From Pseudomonas sp. UYIF39 (lineage in GTDB: Bacteria > Pseudomonadota > Gammaproteobacteria > Pseudomonadales > Pseudomonadaceae): 64,000 bases of DNA. The stretch lies in NCBI RefSeq assembly GCF_029963765.1, contig NZ_JALBYU010000011.1, positions 1 through 64,000 on the forward strand, in the 5' to 3' direction. The notes under the pieces were generated by a model that made no database searches, was not told the DNA's origin, and saw nothing but the letters and a program-made list of their open reading frames with translations. Shown one piece after another: positions 21,003-45,339 of this stretch. Made by a program: the position numbers and the translations under genes. Within the stretch, counting starts at the first letter, position 1, and each line of letters begins with the position of its first letter.

Positions 21003-21767
21003 TCAATGCAAAATCTGGCTCAAGAACAGCTTGGTACGCTCATTCTGCGGATTATCGAAGAAGTCGTTTGGCGCAGCCTGCTCAACGATTTCACCCTTGT
21101 CCATGAAGATCACACGGTTGGCCACGGTACGGGCGAAGCCCATTTCGTGGGTTACGCAGAGCATGGTCATGCCGTCTTCGGCCAGGCCGATCATGGTGTC
21201 GAGAACCTCTTTCACCATTTCCGGGTCGAGTGCCGAGGTCGGCTCGTCGAACAGCATGATTTTCGGTTTCATGCACAGGGCACGGGCAATCGCCACACGC
21301 TGTTGCTGACCGCCGGACAGTTGCCCCGGGAATTTATGCGCCTGCTCCGGAATGCGGACGCGCTCCAGGTAATGCATGGCGATTTCTTCGGCCTTGCGCT
21401 TGGGCATCTTGCGCACCCACATCGGTGCCAGCGTGCAGTTCTGCAGGATGGTCAGGTGCGGGAACAGGTTGAAGTGCTGGAACACCATGCCGACTTCACG
21501 GCGAACCGATTCGATCTGCTTGAGGTCGTTGGTCAGCTCCACGCCATCGACCACGATGCGGCCCTGCTGGTGTTCTTCCAGACGGTTGAGGCAACGAATG
21601 GTGGTGGACTTGCCGGAACCAGACGGGCCACACAGGACGATTCGCTCGCCCTGTTTAACGTTCAGGTTGATGTCTTTCAATACGTGGAACTGGCCGTACC
21701 ACTTGTTCACGCCCTGCATCTGAATAATGCCTTCAGGGCTCACAGGCTTTTTGATTGCTTCGCTCAT
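21003..21767 (-). CDS. aapP: General L-amino acid ABC transporter, ATPase AapP
   Basis: AapP powers uptake of polar and general amino acids through AapQM. The 254-residue protein has the Walker A GPSGSGKS (residues 47-54), signature LSGGQQQR, Walker [15 protein letters not shown] and the H-loop VTHEMGF. I chose the ATG at 21767 ([13 protein letters not shown]), because the frame upstream runs into aapM. It starts 10 nt after the aapM stop and ends the operon at a terminator. Confidence 0.95.
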
Positions 21768-21777
21768 TACAGAACTC

Positions 21778-22875
21778 CTAACGCTTGTGGCCAGTGTCGA
21801 GCTTGCGTTCCAGATGCATGGAATAGCGCGACATACCAAAACAGAAAATCCAGAACACCAGGGCCGCGAACACATAGCCTTCGGTGGCCATGCCCAACCA
21901 TTTCGGGTCGGCGGCTGCTTGTTTGACGCTGTTGAGCAAGTCGAACAGGCCGATGATGATCACCAGGCTCGTGTCCTTGAACAGCGCAATGAAGGTGTTG
22001 ACGATGCCGGGGATCACCAGCTTCAGGGCTTGCGGCAGAATCACCAGGCCCATGCTGCGCCAGTAGCCGAGGCCCATCGCTGCAGCCGCTTCGTATTGAC
22101 CTTTGGGAATCGCTTGCAGACCACCGCGCACCACTTCGGCGACGTACGCCGACTGGAACAGGATCACGCCGATCAGTGCCCGCAGCAGCTTGTCGAAGCT
22201 CATGCCTTCCGGCAGGAACAACGGCAGCATCACCGACGACATGAACAGCACTGTAATCAACGGCACGCCACGCCAGAACTCGATGAAGGTCACGCAGACC
22301 ACGCGAATCGCCGGCATGTTCGAACGACGCCCCAGCGCCAGGACGATCCCCAGCGGCAAAGCGCCAGCGATACCGACGGTGGCGATCACCAGGGTCAGCA
22401 TCAAGCCGCCCCATTGGCTGGTCGCCACGCTGGTCAGGCCGAAGATGCCGCCATGCAGCAGGAAGTAGGCAATGATCGGGTAAAGCACCAGGAAGCTCAG
22501 GCCGTACACCGCTTTGCGGTGAAAGCGCGAGATGAACAAGGGTGCGATACCGATGACCGCCAGCCACACGGTCAGGTCGACACGCCAGCGCAGTTCCGGC
22601 GGGTAGTAGCCGTACATGAACTGGCCGAAACGCTGCTGGATGAACACCCAACAGGCGCCCTCCTTCGTGCAGTCAGCGCGCGTGGTGCCGACCCAGTTGG
22701 CGTCCAGGATCGCCCAATGCAGGATCGGCGGCACCACCAGGTAGATCAGGTAGAACGCAAACAGGGTCAGCAAGGTGTTAAGCCAGCTGGAGAACATGTT
22801 CGCGCGCATCCACGCCACGACACCAATACTGCGGTTCGGGGGCGGCATGTCAGGTTTGAAAGTATGAGTTGTCAT
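21778..22875 (-). CDS. aapM: General L-amino acid ABC transporter, permease AapM
   Basis: The 365-residue inner-membrane permease has an extended N-terminal segment with early helices, then a HisM/GlnP-type permease core with the EAA loop ([20 protein letters not shown]). AapM forms a heterodimer with AapQ. It lies 10 nt after aapQ and 10 nt before aapP. Confidence 0.95.
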
Positions 22876-22885
22876 GCGCTTTTCC

Positions 22886-24067
22886 TTACCGCTCGATCAG
22901 CGCAATGCGCTTGTTGTACCAGTTCATCAGCAGGGAAATGCTGATACTGATCGCCAGGTACACGCTCATGGTGATGGCAATCACTTCGATCGCTTGCCCG
23001 GTCTGGTTCAGCACCGTACCGGCAAACAACGAAACCATTTCCGGATAACCGATACCGGCCGCCAGCGAGGAGTTCTTCGCCAGGTTCAGGTATTGGCTGG
23101 TCAGCGGTGGAATGATCACGCGCAGGGCTTGCGGGATGATGACCTTGCGCAGGGTCGGACCGTTGCGCAATCCCAACGAGTGCGCCGCTTCCGTCTGGCC
23201 GTGGCTGACCGACTTGATGCCCGAACGCACGATCTCGGCGATAAACGCCGCGGTGTACACCGTCAGGGCCAGGGTCAGCGCCAGCAATTCCGGGATCAGC
23301 ACCCAGCCACCGACGAAGTTGAAGCCTTGCAGCTTCGGCATTTCCCAGTGCAGCGGCGCGCCGAAGATCAATGCGCACAGCGCAGGGATCACCAGGAACA
23401 GCGCCAGGCCCACCCAGAACTTGTGGAACGGTACGCCGGTCTCTTCGAAGCGTTTAGTGGCCCAGCGGCTCATCAGCACGATGGCGACAATGGCCACGAC
23501 GACGCTGACCACAAACGGCCAGAAACCATCCGCCGTCAACGCGGCCGGCATGTTCAGGCCGCGGCTGCTGACAAAGAAGGTGTCGCCGAAGTTATGGCTG
23601 TTGCGTGGCCCCGGCATGGTCAGGAACACCGCGAAGTACCAGAACAGAATTTGCAGCAGCGGCGGAATGTTGCGGAAGACTTCCACATAAACAGTCGCCA
23701 GCTTGCTGATGATCCAGTTCTTCGACAGCCGTGACACACCGACGATGAACCCGAGGATCGTCGCCAGGATCACGCCTATGACAGTCACCAGCAGCGTGTT
23801 GAGCAGGCCGATGACAAACACCCGGGCATAGCTGTCCGATTCGGTGTAGTCGATCAGGTGTTGAGCGATGCCGAAACCGGCACTGCGCTCCAGAAAACTG
23901 AAACCGGATGTAATACCCCGGTGTTGCAGGTTGGTCTGTGTGTTGTCGAACAGATACCAGCCCATCGAGACCACCGCCACAATGGTGATGATCTGAAACA
24001 GCCACGCACGCACTTTGGGATCGCTGAGGCTGAGCCTCTGCTTTGGTGCGCCGATTGAATTTTGCAT
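22886..24067 (-). CDS. aapQ: General L-amino acid ABC transporter, permease AapQ
   Basis: The 393-residue permease begins MQNSIGAPKQRLSLSDPKVR and has the large periplasmic insertion typical of AapQ (about residues 150-260) and the EAA loop (AAFIAEIVRSGIKSVSHGQT). It is separated from aapJ by a hairpin-containing 65-nt gap. Confidence 0.95.
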   Translation of the reverse strand: MQNSIGAPKQRLSLSDPKVRAWLFQIITIVAVVSMGWYLFDNTQTNLQHRGITSGFSFLERSAGFGIAQHLIDYTESDSYARVFVIGLLNTLLVTVIGVILATILGFIVGVSRLSKNWIISKLATVYVEVFRNIPPLLQILFWYFAVFLTMPGPRNSHNFGDTFFVSSRGLNMPAALTADGFWPFVVSVVVAIVAIVLMSRWATKRFEETGVPFHKFWVGLALFLVIPALCALIFGAPLHWEMPKLQGFNFVGGWVLIPELLALTLALTVYTAAFIAEIVRSGIKSVSHGQTEAAHSLGLRNGPTLRKVIIPQALRVIIPPLTSQYLNLAKNSSLAAGIGYPEMVSLFAGTVLNQTGQAIEVIAITMSVYLAISISISLLMNWYNKRIALIER

Positions 24068-24096
24068 GAAGTGCCCCGCAAAGAATGGAACAGAAC

Positions 24097-24125
24097 ATCA
24101 CCCGGTGGTTGGCCCACCGGGTGAT
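24097..24125 (-). terminator. Intercistronic hairpin between aapJ and aapQ
   Basis: ATCACCCGGTG and CACCGGGTGAT form an 11-bp stem around GTTGGCC, right after the aapJ stop, with no U tract. Such hairpins commonly stabilise the abundant binding-protein mRNA and lower downstream permease expression. Confidence 0.75.
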
Positions 24126-24132
24126 AGAACCA

Positions 24133-25164
24133 TCAGCGCACTGGTGGTGCGTATTGAATGCCGCCGTTGGTCCACAGGGCGTTCAAGCCACGATCGATTT
24201 CCAGCGGAGTGCTCTTGCCGAGGTTTTTCTCGAAGACTTCACCGTAGTTACCAACCTGACCGACGATCTTGACGACCCAGTCCTTCGGCAGTTTCAGGTC
24301 TTTGCCGTATTCGCCATCAGCACCCAGCAGACGGGCAACGTCCGGGTTCTTGGTGGACTTGGCTTGTTCAGCCACGTTTTTGGACGTCACGCCCGCCTCT
24401 TCGGCGTTGAGCATGGCGTAGCCAACCCAACGAACGATGGCCAGCCACTCGTCGTCGCCGTTACGCACGACAGGACCCAGAGGTTCTTTGGAAATGGTTT
24501 CCGGCAGAACGACGTAGTCTTTTGGCGAGGCCAGCTTACTGCGCTGTGCGTAGAGCTGGGACTTGTCGGAGGTCAGCACGTCGCAACGACCGGATTCCAG
24601 CGACTTGGCGCTTTCATCGGAGGTGTCGAAGGTGATCGGGGTGTATTTCAGGTTGTTGGAACGGAAGTAGTCGGACACGTTCAGCTCGGTGGTGGTACCG
24701 GCTTGAATACAGATGGTCGCGCCGTCCAGTTCCTTGGCACTTTTTACGCCCAGCTTGCTGTTGGCCAGGAAGCCTACGCCGTCGTAATACGTAATGAAGC
24801 CTGGAAACTTCAGGCCCATGCCCGCGTCACGGGAACTGGTCATGGTGGAGTTGCGCGACAGCATGTCGATTTCGCCGGATTGCAGCGCGGTGAAACGCTC
24901 TTTGGCGTTCAACTGGCTGAATTTGACCTTGGTCGCGTCGCCGAATACGGCAGCGGCCACAGCGCGGCAGACGTCGGCATCGATACCGATGATCTTGCCA
25001 GTCGAATCCGGTACCGAGAAGCCCGGCAGACCATCACTGACGCCGCACTGTACAAAACCTTTCTTCTGCACTGCATCCAGGGTTGCACCCGCCTGAGCGA
25101 ACCCACTGACACCGAGTACTGCGGCTGCAGTCACGATAGCCAGGGTGGATTTCAACATCTTCAT
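24133..25164 (-). CDS. aapJ: General L-amino acid-binding protein AapJ
   Basis: AapJ is the periplasmic receptor of the Aap system. The 343-residue precursor has a signal peptide (MKMLKSTLAIVTAAAVLGVS and cleavage after AQA near residue 25) and an SBP_bac_3 fold: LDAVQKKGFVQCGVSDGLPG, the SQLNAKERFTALQSGEIDML box, and two cysteines. It is first in the operon; its promoter lies in the 467-bp gap upstream. Confidence 0.96.
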   Translation of the reverse strand: MKMLKSTLAIVTAAAVLGVSGFAQAGATLDAVQKKGFVQCGVSDGLPGFSVPDSTGKIIGIDADVCRAVAAAVFGDATKVKFSQLNAKERFTALQSGEIDMLSRNSTMTSSRDAGMGLKFPGFITYYDGVGFLANSKLGVKSAKELDGATICIQAGTTTELNVSDYFRSNNLKYTPITFDTSDESAKSLESGRCDVLTSDKSQLYAQRSKLASPKDYVVLPETISKEPLGPVVRNGDDEWLAIVRWVGYAMLNAEEAGVTSKNVAEQAKSTKNPDVARLLGADGEYGKDLKLPKDWVVKIVGQVGNYGEVFEKNLGKSTPLEIDRGLNALWTNGGIQYAPPVR

Positions 25165-27935: not shown

Positions 27936-27967
27936 TTGATCGAGACAACTAAAAGTCCATAATGGAC
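27936..27967 (+). promoter_or_regulatory. dauB promoter with overlapping palindrome
   Basis: TTGATC (27936-27941) and CATAAT (27958-27963) are spaced by 16 nt, a plausible sigma-70 promoter. GTCCAT-A-ATGGAC (27955-27967) is a perfect 13-bp palindrome covering the -10. It is the best candidate operator for DauR, which represses dauBAR in P. aeruginosa; the assignment is inferred. Confidence 0.5.
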
Positions 27968-28000
27968 AAATTAGTTTACTTCCAGCTCCCGGAGCCGACC

Positions 28001-28948
28001 ATGTCCAGTACGCCTTACGTGATCACCCAAGCTCAGGCCAGCGAGTTGCTGGCGCAGGTCGACGTGCCGCAGATCCTGCGCAAACTGTTCCGCGACCTGG
28101 CCGCTGGGCAGGCCGTACAACCGGCGCAACAACTGGTGGAATTCCCGCAAGGCGCTGGCGACTTCATCAACTACCTGGGCGTGCTGGCCGAAGACGGCGT
28201 TTACGGGGTCAAGACCTCGCCGTACATCGTGCGCGAACAAGGCCCGCTGGTGACTGCCTGGACGCTGCTGATGTCGATGCAGACTGGCCAGCCGCTGTTG
28301 CTCTGCGATGCCGGTGAACTGACCACGGCACGCACCGCTGCAACAACTGCAGTAGCGGTCGACGCCCTCGCCCCGATGAAGGCCCGACGCTTGGCAATCA
28401 TCGGCAGCGGCAAGGTCGCCCAGGCGCACCTGCACTACGTCAAGGGTCTGCGCGACTGGCAAAGCATCAGCCTCTACTCGCCGAGCCTGAGCGACAAGAA
28501 TCCCGAAGTATTGGCACAGCTCCAAAGTCTCGATCCTCGGCTGACCATCGTCGACAGTCGTGAAGCAGCGGTTCAAGACGCCGACGTGATCATGTTGTGC
28601 ACCTCTTCCGCAGGCCCGGTGATCGACCCGTCAAGCTTGAGCAAACCGGCGCTGATCACCTCCATCAGCACCAACGCGCCGCGCGCCCATGAAGTACCGC
28701 CGCAGAGCCTCAATGACATGCAAGTGTTCTGCGATTATCGTCTGACCACCCCGGGCTCGGCCGGCGAGATGCTGATTGCCGGTGAACTACATGGCTGGGA
28801 CAAAAACGCGATCATCGGCGACCTGCCCGATCTGCTCAGCGAAAAAGTCCAGCGCCCCGACTACGACCGCCATGTGTTCTTCCGCTCCATTGGCCTGGGC
28901 CTGGAAGACATTGCACTGGCCAATGCCATCTACCGCCTACAGCACTAA
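28001..28948 (+). CDS. dauB: NAD(P)H-dependent anabolic L-arginine dehydrogenase
   Basis: DauB, an ornithine cyclodeaminase-family enzyme, reduces 2-ketoarginine to L-arginine and with DauA racemises D- to L-arginine. The 315-residue protein has the Rossmann motif AIIGSGKVAQAHL and the family block GELTTARTAATTAVAVDAL. I chose the ATG at 28001 (MSSTPYVITQAQ), which has GGAG upstream; an earlier in-frame ATG at 27962 lies within the operator. Gene order rhlB-dauB-dauA-dauR equals P. aeruginosa. Confidence 0.88.
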   Translation: MSSTPYVITQAQASELLAQVDVPQILRKLFRDLAAGQAVQPAQQLVEFPQGAGDFINYLGVLAEDGVYGVKTSPYIVREQGPLVTAWTLLMSMQTGQPLLLCDAGELTTARTAATTAVAVDALAPMKARRLAIIGSGKVAQAHLHYVKGLRDWQSISLYSPSLSDKNPEVLAQLQSLDPRLTIVDSREAAVQDADVIMLCTSSAGPVIDPSSLSKPALITSISTNAPRAHEVPPQSLNDMQVFCDYRLTTPGSAGEMLIAGELHGWDKNAIIGDLPDLLSEKVQRPDYDRHVFFRSIGLGLEDIALANAIYRLQH

Positions 28949-28960
28949 CACCACAAACCC

Positions 28961-29050
28961 TGTGGGAGCGAGCTTGCTCGCGATTGCGGCTTGTCATTCA
29001 GCAATGATGTTGACTGATACACCGCTATCGCGAGCAAGCTCGCTCCCACA
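28961..29050. repeat. Complete REPIN inside the dau gene set
   Basis: 90 bp with inverted arms TGTGGGAGCGAGCTTGCTCG and its complement, spacer of about 40 bp similar to that at 13708-13797. It separates dauB from dauA and may uncouple their expression or stabilise the dauB 3' end. Confidence 0.92.
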
Positions 29051-29070
29051 GGGGGTATCGATATCAATAG

Positions 29071-30231
<1,161 letters not shown>

Positions 30232-30275
30232 CTTTCGGACGCAGGTGACGTGTCGACACGATTGCGGCAAACTCC

Positions 30276-30301
30276 CAGCGCCCTTTTTTGACGGGGCGCT
30301 G
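30276..30301 (+). terminator. Hairpin between dauA and dauR
   Basis: CAGCGCCC and GGGCGCTG form a stem with a TTTTTTGACG loop. The T run sits in the loop, so it is not a standard terminator; it may dampen dauR readthrough. Confidence 0.4.
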
Positions 30302-30323
30302 ATGCTGTCTGGAGCTCCACTTT

Positions 30324-30980
30324 ATGAACGCCCAAGAACACGAACCGGCCGGTGATGACTCTGCATTGAGGAGCTCGCCGCTGGACAATTTCCGCGCGAT
30401 CGCCGATGCCATCGCCACATTGTTCTTTCCTCACGCCGAGGTGGTGCTGCACGACCTGCGTACCCAGAAGGTCGACTACATCGCCAACAACCTGTCCAAA
30501 CGGGAAATCGGTGACGACTCGGCGCTGGAGGACATGCTCAGCGAAGAGATCAGCGAACGAAACATCGGGCCGTACGAAAAGCTCAATTGGGATGGCCAGA
30601 AGATTCGCAGCCTGAGCAGCGTGCTGCGCGACAGCGAAGGTCATCCGCTGGCGGTGCTGTGCATCAATCTGAATATTTCGTTGTTCGAAAATGCCAAGGC
30701 CGCGCTGGATCTGTTCCTGTCACCGAGCAAGTTGATTCCGCAACCGGACTCGCTGTTTCGCGATGACTGGCAGGAGCGCATCAACACTTTCCTCCACGCC
30801 TGGCTACGCGAACGTCAGTTGAGCCTGAACCTGCTGACCCGTGACCATAAACGCGAACTGGTGCTGGCACTGCACGCCGAGGGCGCCTTCAAAGGCAAAA
30901 GCGCCTCCAACTATGTGGCGAACGTGCTGAACATGGGCCGAGCGACTGTGTACAAGCATTTGAAGGAATTGAAGGGCTGA
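30324..30980 (+). CDS. dauR: Transcriptional repressor DauR (YheO-like)
   Basis: The 218-residue protein has a YheO-like PAS domain (LFFPHAEVVLHDLRTQKVDY and SSVLRDSEGHPLAVLCINLN) and a C-terminal HTH of the YheO/DauR type (SASNYVANVLNMGRATVYKH). In P. aeruginosa DauR represses dauBAR and releases it with D- or L-arginine. It is the third gene of the set; dauA and dauR are 92 nt apart. Confidence 0.88.
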   Translation: MNAQEHEPAGDDSALRSSPLDNFRAIADAIATLFFPHAEVVLHDLRTQKVDYIANNLSKREIGDDSALEDMLSEEISERNIGPYEKLNWDGQKIRSLSSVLRDSEGHPLAVLCINLNISLFENAKAALDLFLSPSKLIPQPDSLFRDDWQERINTFLHAWLRERQLSLNLLTRDHKRELVLALHAEGAFKGKSASNYVANVLNMGRATVYKHLKELKG

Positions 30981-36049: not shown

Positions 36050-36799
36050 ATGAATACGACGTTTTCCTGCGTAGGCTGTGGCAAATGCTGCAACGACCAC
36101 CACGTACCCCTGACCCTGCCTGAAGCCCGGATGTGGGCGGCTGATGGTGGTCAGGTGATCGTGCTGGTGGAAGGTTTCCTGGGCAATGGCCTGGGCCTGC
36201 CAGTGCAGCAACGCGAACACGCCGAACGCCGTTCGGTGAGGGTTCGAAGCGGCGCATCCGAGGCATACATCGCCATCACCTTTGCCGCCTACAACGTCGG
36301 TCCTTGCCGGAATCTTGACGAAGACAACCTCTGCCGCATCTACGAACGCCGGCCGCTGGTGTGCCGCATCTACCCGATGGAAATCAATCCGCACATCCCC
36401 CTGAACATTGCCGTGAAGGAATGTCCTCCCGAGTCGTGGGAAAAGGGAGCGGATCTGATTGTGGGCGGTGAGTTGGTGGATCAGGAACTGGTCGGATTAA
36501 TCCAGCGCTCCCGTCAGGCGGATCGCGATGACATTCGGACCAAGGATGCGATTTGCGCGTTGCTGGGGATTCGGACTACAGCACTGAAGGGCGATGGGTT
36601 TACTGCTTATCTGCCGGACATGACGGCGTTTGCGAGGGTCATCGATCAGGTTGCGGCGCAGCCATTGGCTGAGTCTGACGCTGACTGGTTGTTTCATGTG
36701 TCGGGTGAGGACATTGCCGGGCAAGTGCAGGCGGCCGGGGCGCACGTGGCGACTGATGCTCCCGAGAATTACGCGTTCATTTCGTTGCGGGCAGCCTAA
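36050..36799 (+). CDS. YkgJ-family cysteine-cluster protein
   Basis: The 249-residue protein begins MNTTFSCVGCGKCCNDHHVP and has a second cysteine set (GPCRNLDEDNLCRIYERRPL and CRIYPMEI), the putative zinc- or iron-chelating arrangement of the YkgJ/UPF0153 family. The ATG at 36050 was chosen because the cluster starts right after it. The C-terminal half is helical and unassigned. No biochemical role is established. Confidence 0.85.
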   Translation: MNTTFSCVGCGKCCNDHHVPLTLPEARMWAADGGQVIVLVEGFLGNGLGLPVQQREHAERRSVRVRSGASEAYIAITFAAYNVGPCRNLDEDNLCRIYERRPLVCRIYPMEINPHIPLNIAVKECPPESWEKGADLIVGGELVDQELVGLIQRSRQADRDDIRTKDAICALLGIRTTALKGDGFTAYLPDMTAFARVIDQVAAQPLAESDADWLFHVSGEDIAGQVQAAGAHVATDAPENYAFISLRAA

Positions 36800-36859: not shown

Positions 36860-37999
36860 TCAGCTGGCCGTCACCGCCAGACATTCCACTTCTACCCGCG
36901 CGTTCTCGACCAACTTGCCGGCAAACGTCGTACGTGCGGGCAAACGATCCGCCGGAAAGAAACTGCGATACACAGCACTCATGGCGGAAAAATCCCTTAT
37001 GTCGTCAAGGATGACCGTGCATTTGGCTACATGAGCCAGGGACGAACCGTTGCGTTGCAGCGCGGTACGCAAGTTCTCCATGGCCTGGGTCGTCTGCGGG
37101 CCGATGCCGCCCTTCACCAGTTCACCATCAGCCCCGAGGCCGATCATCCCGGAAAAGTAAAGGGTCTCGCCGACCTGCACCGCATCGGAGAATGGCAGAC
37201 CTTCCTCATTCGGAAAGTAGCGTGGCGAGTCTGGTGCTGCGGGTGGCAAATAACGCTGGGTAATCGCCTGGTACTGGCCATTTTGCTTAAGACGCTCAAG
37301 CGCCGCATTCAGGTTATCGCGCAGCAGGGTGTCGGTTTTTCGCACAGCCATGGCCACGCCACTGCCCAGCATGGGGTCCTTGAGCGCCGGACCGACAAAA
37401 TCAAAACCTTGCCCCTGAGGCTGACTTAAAAGCGCCTGGGTGATTTCAATCGAGTCTTGCAGGGTCGCGTCGAGCTCACCCGCCAGCAAGCCGGCGATCA
37501 ATTGATTGTTGAGAGCAAAACTGCGAATTGTCACTCCGGCCGGGGCCCAGCGGGACTTGGCGAACGCTTCGCGGCTGGTGCCTGTCAGGACGCCGACACG
37601 CTTGCCCTTGAGCGATCGCACATCCGGTTGAAGATTCGCCCCTTTGCGCGCCACCAGACGGCTGCTCAGGGGGTAAAGATCATCGGTGAAATCGACCCGT
37701 TCTCGACGCGCCGATGTTGCCGTCATCGGCATGATCACGTCGAAAAGGTTGGATTCGAGGGCATGAATGTTGGTCGCGTAATCCTGATCAACCCAGACAC
37801 AGCGGGATTTGAGTTCGGCACACAGTGCATTGCCCAACTCGATATTCAATCCGACCAGCTCACCCTTGTCGTTACGACTCTCGAACGGTGGAACCAGGGC
37901 TTCGACACCGAAACGGATCTGCGGATCGGGCACAACCGACATGCAGCCGGTGACCAGGGCCACTAGCGAAAGGAGAGAGAGGGTTTTTACAAGAGACAT
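36860..37999 (-). CDS. Lipoprotein with solute-binding domain fused to a Rid (YjgF) domain
   Basis: The 379-residue precursor has a lipoprotein signal with lipobox VTGC (Cys19), an SBP_bac_3 domain (about residues 27-245, QIRFGVEALVPPFESRNDKG and the LGSGVAMAV segment), and a C-terminal Rid/YjgF/UK114 domain of about 120 residues (VQVGETLYFSGMIGLGADGE, and the PARTTF motif with the arginine that deaminates imines in RidA). The start at 37999 has GAAGG 8 nt upstream. No ABC permease or ATPase lies next to it. The fusion implies a lipid-anchored sensor or imine-handling protein in the periplasm; its function is not known. Confidence 0.85.
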   Translation of the reverse strand: MSLVKTLSLLSLVALVTGCMSVVPDPQIRFGVEALVPPFESRNDKGELVGLNIELGNALCAELKSRCVWVDQDYATNIHALESNLFDVIMPMTATSARRERVDFTDDLYPLSSRLVARKGANLQPDVRSLKGKRVGVLTGTSREAFAKSRWAPAGVTIRSFALNNQLIAGLLAGELDATLQDSIEITQALLSQPQGQGFDFVGPALKDPMLGSGVAMAVRKTDTLLRDNLNAALERLKQNGQYQAITQRYLPPAAPDSPRYFPNEEGLPFSDAVQVGETLYFSGMIGLGADGELVKGGIGPQTTQAMENLRTALQRNGSSLAHVAKCTVILDDIRDFSAMSAVYRSFFPADRLPARTTFAGKLVENARVEVECLAVTAS

Positions 38000-38141: not shown

Positions 38142-38399
38142 TCAGCGTTTACCCATGGAGCGACGAGTGCCAGGAGGCGCCGCACCCGGCGTCTTGGTAT
38201 GGCCATTCTTGGCGCCATTTTTGTACCAAGGCTGGCTGGCGTTCTTGGCCGCGGCCAGGTCGCCGGGTTTGAACGGGAACTTGAACGCGGGGACCGCGGC
38301 TTTGGTTTCGCTGTCTGCGCTGGAGTCGACGCTGTCTGGCAGGTCTGCCTGGTCGTCGCTCAAAGCGTCGGCAACCGGCGGTTGTGTCGGGGAAGTCAT
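38142..38399 (-). CDS. Small hypothetical protein
   Basis: The 85-residue product (from MTSPTQPPVADALSDDQADL) has a Ser/Asp-rich N-terminal half and a basic C-terminal half (FKPGDLAAAKNASQPWYKNG, then KTPGAAPPGTRRSMGKR). There is no signal peptide or membrane segment. Its composition suggests an intrinsically disordered protein. No family recognised. Confidence 0.55.
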   Translation of the reverse strand: MTSPTQPPVADALSDDQADLPDSVDSSADSETKAAVPAFKFPFKPGDLAAAKNASQPWYKNGAKNGHTKTPGAAPPGTRRSMGKR

Positions 38400-38559
38400 G
38401 AAAGCTCCGGGTGATGCAATAGAGTCGGGCCCGATCAGCGAGCCGCGAAAGGCGGCAGTATACCTGTGTCGGGAGCCGCAAGCTTCACGCCGCAAGCGAG
38501 TCCGTCGGGTTTTGTAGTGACTGACCTGACGCCTTCACGCCCTGAGCTTTTCCGTCAAC

Positions 38560-39039: not shown

Positions 39040-40200
39040 ATGCGAATTCAGAAAATACCCACCTTGCTCGCAGCCCTTCTGATCGTTCTGGCAGCGCTGG
39101 GCCTGTGGTACGCCATCAAGCCCGCTACCACCAAACTGACCGCGCCCTCTGCGATCCCCGTTCGGGTAGTGAACGTCACCGAAAAAGACGTCCCCCGCTA
39201 CGTCAGCGGCATCGGCTCAGTGCTGTCGCTGCACAGCGTGGTAGTGCGCCCGCAAATCGACGGTATCCTCACCAGAATCCTGGTCAAGGAAGGCCAACTG
39301 GTGAACAAAGGCGACCTGCTCGCCACCATCGACGACCGCTCGATCCGCGCCAGCCTCGATCAGGCCCGAGCGCAACTCGGCGAAAGTCAGGCGCAATTGC
39401 AAGTCGCACTGGTCAACCTCAAGCGCTACAAGCTATTGAGCGTGGACGACGGCGTTTCCAAACAGACTTATGACCAGCAACAGGCGCTGGTCAACCAACT
39501 CAAAGCTACCGCCCAAGGTAACCAGGCCTCGATCGACGCCGCTCAAGTGCAGCTTTCCTACACACAGATTCGCTCTCCAGTCACCGGCCGCGTCGGTATT
39601 CGCACGGTAGACGAAGGCAACTTCCTGCGCATGACCGACGCTCAAGGCCTGTTCACGGTGACCCAGATCGACCCGATCGCCGTGGAGTTCTCCCTGCCAC
39701 AGCAAATGCTGCCGACCCTGCAGGGGCTGATCAACGATCCGGAACATGCTCAGGTGAAGGCCTACATCGGCGCCGACACTGACGGCGAAACCGGCAATCT
39801 GCTGGGCGAAGGTCATTTGACCCTGATCGACAACCAGATCAACGCCAACACCGGGACCATTCGCGCCAAAGCTGAATTCAACAACCCCGGGCAGAAATTC
39901 TGGCCGGGCCTGCTGGTGACGGTAAAAATTCAGACAGCACTGGATAAAGCTGCGCTGGTGGTGCCGCCCACCGTCGTACAACGCGGTCTCGATCAACATT
40001 TCGTATACCGGGTCAACGGCGACAAGGTCGAAACCGTCACCGTACAAATGGTCTATCAAGGCAGCGGTCAGGACATCATCAAAGGCGTTAAACCGGGCGA
40101 TGTGCTGGTCAGCGACGGCCAGTCGCGACTCAAGCCCGGCTCGACGGTGCATGTAGTGACTGACCCGCCGCAAGTGGTCCAATCGGAGCCGAAACCATGA
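39040..40200 (+). CDS. RND efflux periplasmic adaptor (MdtA-like)
   Basis: The 386-residue membrane-fusion protein has an N-terminal membrane anchor (residues 8-25), a lipoyl/barrel-sandwich domain (VVRPQIDGILTRILVKEGQL), an alpha-hairpin (SLDQARAQLGESQAQLQVAL), and beta-barrel and membrane-proximal domains. Its stop overlaps the pump start by 4 nt. It resembles MdtA/MuxA-type adaptors. Confidence 0.93.
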   Translation: MRIQKIPTLLAALLIVLAALGLWYAIKPATTKLTAPSAIPVRVVNVTEKDVPRYVSGIGSVLSLHSVVVRPQIDGILTRILVKEGQLVNKGDLLATIDDRSIRASLDQARAQLGESQAQLQVALVNLKRYKLLSVDDGVSKQTYDQQQALVNQLKATAQGNQASIDAAQVQLSYTQIRSPVTGRVGIRTVDEGNFLRMTDAQGLFTVTQIDPIAVEFSLPQQMLPTLQGLINDPEHAQVKAYIGADTDGETGNLLGEGHLTLIDNQINANTGTIRAKAEFNNPGQKFWPGLLVTVKIQTALDKAALVVPPTVVQRGLDQHFVYRVNGDKVETVTVQMVYQGSGQDIIKGVKPGDVLVSDGQSRLKPGSTVHVVTDPPQVVQSEPKP

Positions 40201-43200
40201 AGGGCCATGGCTCGATCTCTGCCTGGTGCATCGACCATCCGGTTGCAACGATTCTGCTGACCTTTGCACTGGTGCTGCTCGGTGTCATCGCTTTCCCGCG
40301 CCTGCCCATCGCGCCATTGCCGGAAGCCGAATTCCCCACCATCCAAGTCGCCGCGCAATTGCCCGGTGCCAGCCCGGAGACCATGGCGTCATCGGTGGCC
40401 ACGCCGCTTGAAGTGCAATTCAGCGCCATCCCTGGCGTGACCCAAATGACCTCGAGCAGCGCACTGGGCTCGACCAACCTGACCCTGCAATTCACCCTCG
40501 ACAAAAGCATCGACACCGCTGCTCAGGAAGTACAGGCCGCGATCAACACCGCCGCCGGCAAACTGCCCAAAGACATGCCGACCTTGCCGACCTGGAGGAA
40601 GGTCAACCCGGCCGACAGCCCGGTGCTGATCCTCAGCGTCAACTCGACCCAAATGCCCGGCACCGAACTCAGCGACTTGGTGGAAACCTTGCTCGCCCGT
40701 CAGATCAGCCAGATCGACGGTGTAGGCCAAATCAACATCACCGGTCAGCAACGTCCGGCGATCCGCGTACAGGCCTCGGCCGACAAACTCGCGGCCATCG
40801 GCCTGACACTGGCGGACATTCGTCTGGCCATCCAGAACACCAGCCTCAACCTGGCCAAAGGTGCTTTGTACGGCGAGTCGAGCATTTCGACGCTGTCGAC
40901 CAACGACCAGTTGTTCCATCCTGAGGAATACAGCCAACTCATCGTTTCCTACAAGGACGGTGCCCCGGTTCACCTCAAGGATGTGGCCAAAGTCGTCAAC
41001 GGTTCGGAAGATGCCTACGTGCAAGCCTGGGCCGGTGACAAGCCTGGGGTGAACCTGGTGATTTCCCGGCAACCGGGCGCCAACATCGTCGAAACCGTGG
41101 ATCGCATTCAGGCTGCCTTGCCCGGTCTCGAAGCCATGTTGCCGGCATCGGTGCAGGTCAAGGTGCTGGTCGACCGCACCCAGACCATCCGCGCCTCGCT
41201 GCACGAAGTGGAAGTCACCCTGCTGATAGCGATCATGCTGGTAGTGGCGGTGATGGCGCTGTTCCTGCGCCAATGGTCGGCGACGATGATTGTGTCGGCG
41301 GTGCTGGGTGTTTCGCTGATCACCAGTTTCGCCCTGATGTACATCATGGGTTTCAGCCTGAACAACCTGACGCTGGTGGCGATCGTGGTGGCCGTGGGGT
41401 TTGTGGTCGACGATGCGATTGTGGTGGTGGAGAACATTCACCGTCACCTTGAGGCTGGCGACGGCATGCGCGAGGCGGCGATCAAAGGTGCCGGCGAGAT
41501 TGGTTTCACCGTGGTCTCCATCAGCTTTTCGCTGGTGGCGGCGTTCATTCCGTTGCTGTTCATGGGCGGCGTGGTCGGGCGGCTGTTCAAGGAATTCGCT
41601 CTGACCGCCACTTCGACCATCATGATTTCGGTGGTGGTCTCACTCACGTTGGCGCCGACGCTGGCCGCGCTGTTCATGCGCGCGCCGGTGCATCACGCCC
41701 ACAGCAAACCTACGTTTGGCGAACGCTTGCTGACAGGCTATGAAAAACTTCTGCGCCGCGCCCTCGCCCACCAGAAGCTGATGATCGGGGTGTTCTTCCT
41801 GTCTCTGTGCCTGGCGATTGCCGGTTACATCTTTATCCCCAAGGTTTTTTTTCCGGTGCAAGACACCGGTTTTGTCCTCGGCACCACCGAAGCCGCCGCG
41901 GATATCTCCTACGGCGACATGGTAAAAAAACACCTGGCAATGGCCGAAATCGTCGCCGCGGATCCGGCGGTCGCGGCGTTTTCCCACTCGGTCGGCGTTT
42001 CTGGCAGCAACCAGACCATCGCCAACGGTCGCTTCTGGATCTCCCTGAAAAAACGCGGCGACCGCGACGTCTCCGCCAGCCAGTTCATTGACCGGATTCG
42101 TCCGCAACTGATGAAAGTCCCGGGCATCGTGCTGTACCTGCGCGCCGGCCAAGACATCAACCTCAGTTCCGGCCCGAGCCGCGCCCAGTACCAATACGTG
42201 CTCAAGAGCAACGACGGTGCAGTCCTCAGCACCTGGACCCAGCGCCTCACGGAAAAACTGCGCAGTAACCCGGCGTTCCGTGACATTTCCAATGACCTGC
42301 AACTGGGCGGCAGCATCACCCACATCAACATCGACCGCAGCGCCGCGGCCCGATTCGGCCTGACCGCCAGTGATGTCGATGAAGCGCTGTACGACGCCTT
42401 CGGCCAGCGGCAGATCAACGAGTTCCAGACGCAGATCAACCAGTACAACGTGATTCTGGAACTGGATACCAAGCAGCGCGGCAAGGCCGAAAGCCTCAAC
42501 TATTTCTACCTGCGCTCGCCCCTGAGCGGGGAAATGGTGCCGCTGTCAGCGCTGGCGAAATTCGATGCGCCGACCGTGGGTCCGCTGTCCATTGCCCATG
42601 ACGGCATGTTCCCGGCCGCCAACCTGTCGTTCAATCTGGCGCCCGGTGTGGCGCTGGGCGATGCGGTGATCATGCTCAACCAGGCCAAGGCTGAAATCGG
42701 CATGCCGGCCGCCATGAGCGGCAACTTCCAGGGCGCGGCCCAGGCGTTCCAGAGCTCGCTGGCCAGCCAACCGTGGTTGATCCTGGCGGCGCTGGTGGCG
42801 GTGTATATCATTCTCGGCGTGCTTTACGAGAGCTTCGTGCATCCGCTGACCATCATCTCGACGCTGCCGTCGGCGGGACTCGGCGCGGTGATCATGTTGT
42901 GGATTTGCGGCCAGGACTTTTCGATCATGGCGCTGATCGGGCTGGTGCTGCTGATCGGGATCGTGAAGAAGAACGGCATCCTGATGACCGACTTCGCGCT
43001 CGAAGCGCAACGCAAGGGCGGGCTGCCGCCGGAAGAAGCGATCTACCAGGCCTGTATCACACGGTTCCGGCCGATCATCATGACCACCCTCGCCGCCCTG
43101 CTCGGCGCGCTGCCATTGATGCTCGGTTACGGCACCGGCGCCGAACTGCGCCAGCCCTTGGGGATCGCGGTGGTCGGCGGCTTGCTGGTGAGCCAGGCGC

Positions 43201-43298
43201 TGACGTTGTTCACCACTCCGGTCATATACTTGTGGCTTGAGCGGCTTTTCCATAAGCCCAAACCCGCACCGATGCCGGCGCTGGCAACCACAGACTGA
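40197..43298 (+). CDS. RND efflux pump permease (MdtB/MdtC-like)
   Basis: The 1033-residue inner-membrane pump has 12 predicted helices and two large periplasmic loops. The proton-relay aspartates are in VVDDAIVVVENI (Asp405 and Asp406), with a lysine in LLIGIVKKNGILMTDF. It resembles MdtB/MdtC/MuxB more than AcrB. Only one permease gene is present, unlike the paired MdtBC or MuxBC systems, and no outer-membrane channel gene adjoins. The substrate is unknown. Confidence 0.93.
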   Translation: MKGHGSISAWCIDHPVATILLTFALVLLGVIAFPRLPIAPLPEAEFPTIQVAAQLPGASPETMASSVATPLEVQFSAIPGVTQMTSSSALGSTNLTLQFTLDKSIDTAAQEVQAAINTAAGKLPKDMPTLPTWRKVNPADSPVLILSVNSTQMPGTELSDLVETLLARQISQIDGVGQINITGQQRPAIRVQASADKLAAIGLTLADIRLAIQNTSLNLAKGALYGESSISTLSTNDQLFHPEEYSQLIVSYKDGAPVHLKDVAKVVNGSEDAYVQAWAGDKPGVNLVISRQPGANIVETVDRIQAALPGLEAMLPASVQVKVLVDRTQTIRASLHEVEVTLLIAIMLVVAVMALFLRQWSATMIVSAVLGVSLITSFALMYIMGFSLNNLTLVAIVVAVGFVVDDAIVVVENIHRHLEAGDGMREAAIKGAGEIGFTVVSISFSLVAAFIPLLFMGGVVGRLFKEFALTATSTIMISVVVSLTLAPTLAALFMRAPVHHAHSKPTFGERLLTGYEKLLRRALAHQKLMIGVFFLSLCLAIAGYIFIPKVFFPVQDTGFVLGTTEAAADISYGDMVKKHLAMAEIVAADPAVAAFSHSVGVSGSNQTIANGRFWISLKKRGDRDVSASQFIDRIRPQLMKVPGIVLYLRAGQDINLSSGPSRAQYQYVLKSNDGAVLSTWTQRLTEKLRSNPAFRDISNDLQLGGSITHINIDRSAAARFGLTASDVDEALYDAFGQRQINEFQTQINQYNVILELDTKQRGKAESLNYFYLRSPLSGEMVPLSALAKFDAPTVGPLSIAHDGMFPAANLSFNLAPGVALGDAVIMLNQAKAEIGMPAAMSGNFQGAAQAFQSSLASQPWLILAALVAVYIILGVLYESFVHPLTIISTLPSAGLGAVIMLWICGQDFSIMALIGLVLLIGIVKKNGILMTDFALEAQRKGGLPPEEAIYQACITRFRPIIMTTLAALLGALPLMLGYGTGAELRQPLGIAVVGGLLVSQALTLFTTPVIYLWLERLFHKPKPAPMPALATTD

Positions 43299-43307
43299 GG
43301 CGGGGTC

Positions 43308-43985
43308 ATGCGCGTTCTGATTATCGAAGACGAGGAAAAAACCGCGGATTATCTGCACCGCGGTCTGACGGAACAGGGTTACACCGTGGACCTGGCGCGC
43401 GACGGCGTTGAAGGCCTGCACCTGGCGCTGGAAAGCGACTACGCGGTGATCGTCCTCGACGTCATGCTGCCGGGCCTCGACGGCTTCGGCGTTTTGCGCG
43501 CGTTGCGTGCGCGCAAGCAAACCCCGGTGATCATGCTCACCGCCCGCGAGCGTGTGGAAGATCGCATCAAAGGCCTGCGCGACGGTGCCGACGATTACCT
43601 TGGCAAACCGTTTTCCTTTCTGGAACTGGTGGCGCGCCTTCAGGCGTTGACGCGTCGCAGCGGTGGCCACGAACCGGTGCAGGTGAGCATCGCCGACCTG
43701 TGGATAGATTTGATCAGCCGCAAAGCCACCCGCGCCGGCACGCGCCTGGACCTGACCGCCAAGGAGTTCTCGCTATTGAGCGTGCTGGCCCGCCGTCAGG
43801 GTGAAATCCTGTCGAAAACCGCCATCGCCGAAATGGTTTGGGACATCAATTTCGACAGCGACGCGAATGTCGTCGAAGTTGCGATCAAACGCCTGCGCGC
43901 CAAGCTCGACGGGCCGTTCGACGAGAAACTGCTGCACACGATTCGTGGCATGGGTTATGTGCTGGAGAGCCGTGGTGTCCAGTAA
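43308..43985 (+). CDS. OmpR-family response regulator
   Basis: The 225-residue protein has a receiver domain (acidic pair in LIIEDEE, phosphoacceptor Asp51 in VLDVMLPGLDG, Lys in GKPFSF) and a winged-helix C-domain (SLLSVLARRQGEILSKTAIA). It resembles the CusR/CopR/IrlR class, which often control metal or drug efflux. It follows the RND pump by 9 nt and overlaps the sensor gene, so it likely regulates the operon. Confidence 0.95.
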   Translation: MRVLIIEDEEKTADYLHRGLTEQGYTVDLARDGVEGLHLALESDYAVIVLDVMLPGLDGFGVLRALRARKQTPVIMLTARERVEDRIKGLRDGADDYLGKPFSFLELVARLQALTRRSGGHEPVQVSIADLWIDLISRKATRAGTRLDLTAKEFSLLSVLARRQGEILSKTAIAEMVWDINFDSDANVVEVAIKRLRAKLDGPFDEKLLHTIRGMGYVLESRGVQ

Positions 43986-45339
43986 TTCGATTGCCCTGCG
44001 CCTCAGTGGGATGTTCACGCTGGTGGCGCTTTTGGTGTTTCTATTGATCGGCTGGGCGCTGTATCAACAGGTCGATAAAGGCCTGGGTTTGCTGCCCGAG
44101 GCTGAACTGGACGCGCGCTACAGCGTGCTCGAGTCCACCGTCGGCCGTTATGGCACGCCCGAGCATTGGGTGAAGATCAACAACAAGCTCAAACTGCTCG
44201 GCGAAGAAGACAAGCGCATCAGCTTCTGGATCATCAGCGGTGATCCGCACTACGAATACGGCAACCTGACGCCGCAGGTCCGCGCCTTTGCCGAAGGGCC
44301 GCTGGGCATGCGCGACTTGAATCTGCCAAATCAGCCTTATCCGCTGAAAGTGCTAGTCAGCCAGTTCCCGGCCAAGGACCAGCGCCCGCCGTTGCGCTTC
44401 ATGATCGGCATCGACACCGAGACGTTTTTGCAGACTCAACATCATCTGCTGATTGCCCTGATCAGCCTGGCGATCATCGGCGTGTTGCTGGCGTCGGCCC
44501 TCGGTTATTGGGTGGCGCGGATCGGCCTCAAGCCGCTGATCAAGTTGTCCCAGGAAGCCCAGCGGCTGGCACCGCCGTTGTTGTCCGGTCGCCTGCAATT
44601 ATCGCCGCTGCCGCCGGAACTGAATCAGTTCGTCAATTCGTTTAACTCGACACTGGAGCGGGTCGAAGAGGCTTACTCGCGCCTTGAGTCGTTCAACGCG
44701 GACGTGGCCCATGAACTGCGCTCGCCCCTTACCAATCTGATCGGCCAGACCCAAGTTGCGCTGACCCGCGGGCGATCCGCCGAACACTACTTTGAAGTAC
44801 TGCAATCGAACCTTGAAGAGCTTGAGCGGCTGCGTTCGATCATCAACGACATGCTGTTTCTCGCCAGCGCGGATCAGGGCAGCAAAGCCACCAAACTGAC
44901 GTCCACCTCACTGGCCGACGAGGTGGCGACGACGCTGGAATATCTGGATTTCATTCTTGAAGACGCGCAGGTTCAGGTGCGGGTCAGTGGTGATGCCCAA
45001 GTGCGGATCGAGATTGCTCATCTGCGCCGGGCGTTGATTAATCTGCTGAGCAATGCGGTGCAGCACACCGAGCCTGGGCAGGTGATTGAGGTGCGGATCG
45101 AGGTTGAGGAGCATCAGGTCAGCATCGGGGTTGCGAACCCTGGGTCGCCGATTGCCAGCGAACATTTGCCGCGGTTGTTTGAGCGCTTTTATCGGGTGGA
45201 TGCGTCGCGCAGCAACAGTGGCAACAACCATGGGTTGGGGTTGGCGATCGTCAAGGCGATTGCGCTGATGCACGGCGGAGATGTGTTTGTGCGCAGTGAT
45301 CACGGTATGAATACCTTCGGAATTCACCTCCCTGTCTGA
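43975..45339 (+). CDS. CusS-like sensor histidine kinase
   Basis: The 454-residue protein has two membrane helices (about residues 10-30 and 160-180), a periplasmic sensor loop, HAMP, the H-box AHELRSPLTN with His246, and a HATPase domain ending in GLGLAIVKAIALMHGG. The start is GTG at 43975 (an adjacent GTG at 43972 is possible), overlapping the regulator by 11 nt. It belongs to the heavy-metal sensor kinase family, but the signal is not proven. Confidence 0.92.
   Translation: MSSNSIALRLSGMFTLVALLVFLLIGWALYQQVDKGLGLLPEAELDARYSVLESTVGRYGTPEHWVKINNKLKLLGEEDKRISFWIISGDPHYEYGNLTPQVRAFAEGPLGMRDLNLPNQPYPLKVLVSQFPAKDQRPPLRFMIGIDTETFLQTQHHLLIALISLAIIGVLLASALGYWVARIGLKPLIKLSQEAQRLAPPLLSGRLQLSPLPPELNQFVNSFNSTLERVEEAYSRLESFNADVAHELRSPLTNLIGQTQVALTRGRSAEHYFEVLQSNLEELERLRSIINDMLFLASADQGSKATKLTSTSLADEVATTLEYLDFILEDAQVQVRVSGDAQVRIEIAHLRRALINLLSNAVQHTEPGQVIEVRIEVEEHQVSIGVANPGSPIASEHLPRLFERFYRVDASRSNSGNNHGLGLAIVKAIALMHGGDVFVRSDHGMNTFGIHLPV

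Follow-up and report, generated by a model that had tools for sequence, protein, structure and literature searches.

Deaminase activity in the Rid family (PF01042) is decided by an arginine equivalent to R356 of the protein described below, according to passages of PMC4433059 and PMC5619798. In AtRidA, replacement of this residue (R165A) left 2.2% of the activity, and the trimer is supported by a salt bridge between K136 and E182, as stated in sections of PMC4960622. Covalent Rid fusions have been described: 3x-RidA and other multi-Rid proteins join Rid to Rid, as set out in parts of PMC4433059, whose methods state that fusions with other families were looked for and detected. In addition, exported fusions of chorismate mutase and cyclohexadienyl dehydratase (CM-CDT) join an exported enzyme to a domain related to SBP_bac_3 in Proteobacteria; according to PMC10520331 they are reported from only nine species, and the SBP-related domain is itself catalytic. 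Both domain families, multi-Rid fusions and exported fusions of an enzyme with an SBP-related domain are, in short, known already. A search of the open-licence literature, which lacks most subscription journals, brought up neither an SBP-Rid fusion nor an exported Rid group. The terms 'periplasm' and 'signal' led to no passage on exported Rids in the main text of PMC4433059 and PMC5619798, and PMC4921024, on gene fusions, names Rid only in its reference list. The SBP-Rid type may nevertheless be listed among the fusions of PMC4433059.

The gene analyzed here lies in a stretch of 64,000 nucleotides of Pseudomonas DNA (referred to as the window) and encodes a solute-binding protein (SBP) with a Rid domain at its C-terminal end. 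It resembles 3x-RidA in being a covalent Rid fusion, but joins Rid to a binding protein, and it resembles the CM-CDT fusions in host phylum and general layout, with a different enzyme; structures of CDT also match the SBP domain of the window protein. The fused Rid shares family, PAR arginine, and cleft and trimer-contact residues with the arginine-bearing group (RidA and Rid1-Rid3). Unlike these, it has an export-type N-terminus, a position behind an SBP, an extra invariant cysteine (C327) and Phe at the position of Tyr17. The SBP half has the domain, the predicted fold, the Arg77 and Asp161 positions (R98 and D182) and Cys60/Cys67 in common with LAO/ArgT and HisJ, but, unlike them, no adjoining transporter genes. 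The same genome also encodes a 439-aa protein with three Rid domains (G000:C25:62714-63892, locus L096), similar to 3x-RidA as described in parts of PMC4433059. The GC content at this locus is 43%, compared to 59.5% in the window, which hints at a recent arrival of the three-Rid gene.

The fused gene and its distribution in Pseudomonas

The initial annotation had assigned one continuous frame of 379 residues to positions 36860-37999. This assignment holds, and the gene resides on the minus strand: ORF translation gives a single frame from an ATG at 37999 to a stop codon at 36862-36860, and stops are present in the plus-strand reading from 36860. The features of the gene are listed in Table 1. 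Terminator-like sites occurred five times in the stretch, compared to 2.7 +/- 2.0 in shuffled sequences, which is a weak signal.

Table 1. Features of the SBP-Rid fusion gene and the region upstream (positions in the window).
Feature	Position	Strand	Basis or remark
SBP-Rid fusion gene, 379 aa	36860..37999	-	ORF, Pfam, homologues
Signal peptide, residues 1-19, ending in lipobox LVTGC	37943..37999	-	translation and pattern match only; near relatives alike
Alternative upstream in-frame ATG of the fusion gene	38014	-	adds 5 residues
SBP_bac_3 domain, residues 27-250, LAO/HisJ-like; pocket residues E33, R98, D182	37250..37921	-	Pfam, sequence and fold comparison
Linker, residues 251-267, fast-evolving	37199..37249	-	dN/dS and lower pLDDT
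Rid (YjgF/UK114) domain, residues 268-375	36875..37198	-	Pfam; UK114/RidA structures, best E 9e-20
R356 codon, equivalent to RidA Arg105 and AtRidA R165	36932..36934	-	42/42 fusions
C327 codon, Cys after K326, first of KC...EC pair	37019..37021	-	invariant, 42/42
C373 codon, Cys after E372, second of KC...EC pair	36881..36883	-	invariant, 42/42
E370 codon, equivalent to AtRidA E180	36890..36892	-	Ala in six-member decaying clade
Terminator-like hairpin with T run, overlapping gene end and stop	36864..36880	-	weak
Short co-directional ORF (F10) upstream of the fusion gene	38142..38399	-	16 members among 41 stretches

Both domains had been described as complete, which is borne out by Pfam matches far above the cut-off and over nearly the full profile length. 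Residues 27-250 matched SBP_bac_3 (PF00497) at an E value of 8.2e-29 (100.5 bits, cut-off 26.4; profile positions 1-130 of 132), and residues 268-375 matched Ribonuc_L-PSP (Rid, PF01042) at 1.9e-24 (86.4 bits, cut-off 27.3; profile positions 10-120 of 121). Against TIGR00004, the Rid domain scored 80.6 and thus below the cut-off of 106.25. An AlphaFold2 monomer model based on 25 aligned homologues reached a mean pLDDT of 88.2 and a pTM of 0.62, with a disordered signal and a weaker linker (mean pLDDT 66 for residues 251-260 and 72 for residues 261-270). The structure comparison of this model by VIA-align listed SBP-type chains only, and the Rid fold therefore rests on sequence matches.

The fusion was present in 30 of 298 sampled Pseudomonas genomes, including that of the window, with both domains matched at 53-100% identity and without internal stops. 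A scan of named genomes yielded 25 loci, comprising 19 full-length Pseudomonas fusions, one broken copy and five partial matches in other genera. No fusion was detected outside Pseudomonas in 390 genomes of the order at E <= 1e-64 or in 369 genomes of the class at E <= 1e-58; both samples include the genome of the window, the order sample also other Pseudomonas, and more diverged fusions would escape these cut-offs. Likewise, no SBP-Rid frame outside the genus was seen by eye among the matches listed in Rid-profile searches at strict cut-offs of 1e-27 and 1e-29. Spread by plasmids was rejected, as 254 plasmid records gave a match but in none did it extend over 80% of the query.

For further comparison, 42 distinct uninterrupted fusions from Pseudomonas were aligned after removal of duplicates; these had been gathered as full-length fusions, the fused state being the criterion of selection. 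Full-length homologues share 51-96% identity, and the single-contig genomes that carry an intact fusion include G046, G213 and G206. That two genes were joined merely by a sequencing or assembly error, as the initial annotation had wished to see excluded, has practically no chance of being true, and a chance join is rejected likewise. A frame break near the junction does occur in one relative, P. frederiksbergensis 36C6 (L057:5001-5613), whose decayed copy has suffered two deletions, one within the SBP part and one at the junction, and was excluded from the alignments as broken; the artefact is refuted by the 42 uninterrupted homologues from many assemblies, among them single-contig genomes. 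In the six stretches with an unfused SBP gene that were searched (L077-L080, L083, L084), no Rid remnant or free Rid gene was found behind that gene at better than E 2. We concluded that the join is real and old and that selection maintains it in some members of Pseudomonas.

Ligand pocket, Rid active site and their evolution

HisJ (E 3.5e-53) and LAO are the nearest solved relatives of the SBP part, and comparison of the model with LAO (5owf, 1lst) gave a Z score of 33.3 and an rmsd of 1.4-1.6 A at 37% identity. The domain is not classed as HisJ, ArgT or LAO because its scores are under the curated NCBIfam cut-offs (TIGR01096, 192.4 vs 256.35; NF011965, 197.7 vs 459; NF011586, 185.6 vs 440). 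The window protein has R98 and D182 at the positions of LAO Arg77 and Asp161, which we take to be the residues binding the alpha-carboxyl and alpha-amino groups. Other positions differ from LAO, with Tyr14 replaced by Val, Ser70 by Pro and Asp11 by Glu, and Ser69 deleted. In the 36 fusions outside a clade with a decaying Rid domain (see below), E33, V36, Y74, P91 and R98 occur in 36/36, and D182 occurs in 31/36 with Asn in the other 5. The retention of R98 and D182 suggests an alpha-amino acid as ligand, and E33 in place of LAO Asp11, together with the similarity to LAO and HisJ, suggests a cationic one. The predicted ligand is, thus, probably a cationic amino acid.

The PAR arginine of the Rid domain had been noted as retained, and R356 is indeed found in 42/42 distinct fusions; S283, F270, P354, C327 and C373 are equally invariant. 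Less strict positions are K326 (38 of 42), E372 (40), E370 (36) and N341 (36), so that the equivalents of the trimer contacts, K326, S283 and E372, are largely retained. G284 and E370 occur in 36/36 fusions outside the decaying clade, and when tested for active-site glutamates the window protein had Glu at both E370 and E372. The position of RidA Tyr17 is occupied by Phe in the fused Rids, and that of Asn88 by Ser in the window protein and by Asn in 36/42. We propose that C327 and C373 may form a disulfide within the Rid domain.

The median dN/dS, determined on 23 hand-chosen pairs, was 0.10 for the SBP and 0.15 for the Rid domain (range for Rid 0.05-0.73, with the top value from a pair with a dS of only 0.08), and 0.24 for the linker in the 20 usable of these pairs. 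For the 36 fusions left after removal of the decaying clade, all pairs with an SBP dN of 0.02-0.15, which are non-independent, gave about equal medians (Rid 0.119, SBP 0.116). Judged by these ratios, purifying selection acts on both domains and constrains the linker less, matching the expectation for one functional two-domain protein.

A tree of the SBP part was calculated from 66 sequences (42 fusions, 13 unfused proteins and 11 paralogues) and rooted on the paralogues. The 13 unfused proteins are the distinct sequences used from 37 unfused copies at 53-59% identity, 8 of which come from genomes with a fused copy as well; at eight loci, unfused and fused copies are located close together. The fused proteins are basal in this tree, and the 13 unfused ones form one nested clade (support 100/99). 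With the outgroup, the fusion state must have changed twice, for which a single gain and a single loss are the simplest account. According to this topology, the fusion is the ancestral state, and the unfused copies are derived within it.

The sister group of the unfused clade consists of six fused proteins (L073-L076, L035, L037; support 98/79). In their Rid domains, E370 is replaced by Ala, G284 by Ser, Thr, Asn or Asp, T358 by Val and F337 by Leu, while R356, K326 and S283 are retained in all six. In the pocket of the same proteins, E33 is changed to Ser or Ala, V36 to Phe, T93 to Ala and D182 to Gly. When the six fusions and the 13 unfused proteins are taken together, the changes at LAO positions are Glu to Ser, Ala or Val at D11, Val to Phe at Y14, Pro to Gly at S70, Thr or Ser to Ala at S72, and Asp or Asn to Gly at D161; R98 is retained in all 66 rows. 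The median ratio of Rid dN to SBP dN was 2.15 in the six (14 pairs) compared to 1.41 over 186 non-independent pairs of the remaining fusions. As the pocket and the Rid site changed together beside the loss of Rid, this pattern suggests that the amino-acid pocket and the catalytic site of Rid have a common function and were abandoned jointly, although it represents one evolutionary event and coincidence is possible.

Export signals and Rid proteins with two cysteines

The N-terminus of the window protein, MSLVKTLSLLSLVALVTGC, reads as a signal peptide and lipobox by pattern match, with LVTGC as residues 15-19 and Cys19 as the lipobox cysteine. By a simple hydropathy rule, 41/42 fusions possess a hydrophobic N-terminal signal, and the remaining one (L043) falls just under the rule (1.79 vs 1.9). 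The lipid anchor proposed initially is thus supported for the window protein; it is not a family-defining trait, because a clear lipobox pattern occurs only in 22/42 fusions. Lipoproteins without Asp after the lipobox cysteine are sorted to the outer membrane, and the absence of this residue in the subclade of the window protein suggests an outer-membrane anchor.

Free Rids were gathered by Rid-profile search of 369 genomes of the class and 359 genomes of the phylum; loci L098 and L100 were dropped as encoding the same protein as L096. The KC...EC cysteine pair was found in 17 of the 40 non-SBP Rids compared, those of the window's own genome included. These 17 comprise 12 free proteins with a signal-like N-terminus (L088, equal to L110; L089, equal to L111; L090, L115-L121, L123 and L125), two fusions to an amidohydrolase and three proteins without a signal. 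Of the free Rids, 11 were picked out by the signal script; inspection by eye added L117 (1.82, rule 1.9) and the Cys pair of L120, and L122 and L124, which failed the script with an N-terminus far upstream, were judged by eye on their amidohydrolase N-termini. None of the 23 Rids without the KC cysteine passed the signal rule or has an equivalent of C327. The second cysteine (C373 position) occurs alone in 4 of these 23, and also in AtRidA as read from primer text in a section of PMC4960622.

In a Rid tree of 61 rows, which covers 21 of the 42 fused Rids and, having few columns, is unsure in its deep forks, the Cys-pair Rids form one clade of 38 rows (support 83/69), and the SBP-fused Rids form one clade inside it (99/94). 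Because the fused Rid is nested in a mostly signal-bearing clade, the Rid half of the fusion most likely descended from an exported Rid. The initial view that Rids are normally cytoplasmic and that the domain was moved out in this protein accordingly needs correcting with respect to its nearest free relatives, which mostly bear export signals, with three lacking them. Possibly, the twelve signal-bearing free Rids with two cysteines constitute an exported Rid subfamily.

The amidohydrolase-Rid fusions are encoded in two other gammaproteobacterial genomes (minus strand, L145:8833-10461 and L146:8414-10027, plus a few codons upstream) and consist of Amidohydro_1 (PF01979) and a C-terminal two-Cys Rid; a gene for a membrane dipeptidase (M19) follows in L145. 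They share the Rid clade, the Cys pair, the signal-like N-terminus and the C-terminal position of Rid with the SBP-Rid proteins, but the partner is an enzyme instead of a binding protein. One signal-less Rid of the same clade (L148:7740-8126, minus strand) is located near genes resembling, by eye, a sarcosine oxidase operon (997, 433, 195 and 100 aa). No common partner was noticed by eye, using gene starts, among the stretches listed of 15 neighbourhoods of free two-Cys Rids.

Genomic neighbourhood and proposed function

For comparison of the fusion loci, as for the free-Rid neighbourhoods, genes were called by a simple purpose-made script. In most loci, the fusion is embedded in a conserved block with the gene of an RND adaptor (F4) on one side and F3-F1-F2 on the other. 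Among 41 stretches, the window included, F4 has 33 members, F3 has 35, and F2, a CheW-receiver (CheV-like) gene, has 35. In the window, the fusion gene lies opposite an operon encoding an RND pump and a two-component system (39040-45339) and adjoins a gene for a CxxCxxCC protein (36131-36799). The longer frame of F10 (38142-38495) gave no Pfam match. A PAS-MCP chemoreceptor gene (F15) adjoins the fusion in 8/41 stretches (L064:6259-7833, L049, L050, L066, L071 and L074-L076).

The absence of adjoining ABC transporter genes, stated initially, was confirmed for the flanking genes tested (29.1-45.3 kb): neither among these nor, as far as recognised, in the conserved block are there cognate permease or ATPase genes, and the amino-acid ABC genes of the window are located at 21006-25164. 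A region starting about 3 kb downstream in L052-L054 contains an SBP gene together with two genes that appear permease-like by eye.

Approximately 6-10 kb from the fusion gene, the window contains an ornithine-cyclodeaminase-family gene, an FAD amine oxidase gene and a regulator-like ORF (27962-30980), presumably a dauBAR-type D-arginine cluster. The FAD amine oxidase (29104-30231), for which NCBIfam returned distant families only, we take to be DauA (D-arginine dehydrogenase). The dauA gene is located within 10 kb of the fusion in the genome of the window, as well as in 4 of the 29 further genomes with the fusion, at 38-49 kb in 5 more, and far away or on another contig in 15; the remaining 5 had no match at E <= 1e-100. 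With close linkage in only 4/29 other fusion genomes, DauA was rejected as a conserved functional partner, and no gene for an imine-forming enzyme is conserved as a neighbour of the fusion. A periplasmic PLP racemase, as known in P. putida (PMC6034422), is unsupported as imine source in this genome, where the sole Ala_racemase_C match lacks a signal peptide.

With a chance somewhat short of even, the protein is an exported, probably periplasmic deaminase of the Rid type that acts on imines or enamines and carries its own LAO/HisJ-like amino-acid-binding domain. In favour of this reading are the retained R356 and other Rid positions, the low dN/dS of the Rid domain, the LAO-like fold and pocket of the SBP model, the joint change of pocket and Rid site in the SBP tree, and the place of the fused Rids among mostly signal-bearing relatives in the Rid tree. 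The Rid domains would assemble as a trimer with the active clefts between subunits, where R356 would serve to hydrolyse an alpha-imino or an enamino acid, while the attached binding domains would capture, close to these clefts, either the parent amino acid, probably a cationic one, or the corresponding imino acid. A cationic amino acid would fit the in vitro action of Rid2 and Rid3 on iminoarginine made by DauA, described in passages of PMC5619798, yet dauA is no conserved close neighbour. Further points against a deaminase are Phe and Ser at the Tyr17 and Asn88 positions, the lack of a conserved imine-forming neighbour, the three signal-less members of the Rid clade, the support of only 83/69 for that clade, and the retention of R356 in the decaying clade. 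On a wider scale, we tentatively picture, with some doubt, an extracytoplasmic Rid branch in Proteobacteria, possibly disulfide-stabilised through C327 and C373, that would handle reactive imino acids in the envelope. In Pseudomonas it would have been joined to a cationic-amino-acid-binding domain, combining capture and imine hydrolysis in one trimeric machine, and where the ligand of the pocket changed, the Rid site would have decayed and then been lost.

Instead of an enzyme, the protein might be a periplasmic sensor in which SBP and Rid clefts bind small amino, keto or imino acids and signal to a membrane receptor. We regard this as rather unlikely, even though it would agree with the CheV-like gene in the conserved block, with the PAS-MCP gene beside some fusions and with the lack of adjoining ABC genes; moreover, Rid clefts hold 2-oxoacids in crystals, according to sections of PMC4960622, and a signalling role was likewise proposed for the exported CM-CDT fusions in PMC10520331. 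However, for the PAS-MCP protein tested Pfam reported nothing other than PAS and MCP signalling domains, its gene is absent from 33/41 stretches, and the full conservation of catalytic positions exceeds the needs of simple binding. The same conservation, seen in all 36 fusions that do not belong to the decaying clade, speaks against a Rid domain that merely trimerises and clusters three SBP domains with catalysis being irrelevant, as do the similar median dN/dS values of both domains in these fusions and the derivation of the fused Rid from a clade of free Rids, which is no known structural module. Such a role would explain why trimer-contact positions are retained and why the decaying clade keeps R356, K326 and S283 but loses E370 and G284; we consider it distinctly unlikely.

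It appears improbable that the exported Rid acts as an envelope stress chaperone, becoming a holdase as RidA does after N-chlorination or meeting reactive chlorine species outside the cytoplasm. RidA has a chlorination-dependent chaperone activity. A review and a paper on YabJ reportedly deal with chlorination (PMC7464077 and PMC6435465). A chaperone, however, would require neither a LAO-type pocket nor the retained deaminase arginine, and no linkage to stress genes was recognised beyond the divergent genes for the RND pump and the two-component system.

A signal-bearing Rid clade, together with a selectively maintained fusion of its Rid to an amino-acid-binding domain, would imply that the cell envelope, too, is a place of imine damage control or imine sensing. 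Proteins from the branch in which pocket and Rid site changed jointly, beside the loss of Rid, offer natural variants for testing whether the two domains cooperate.
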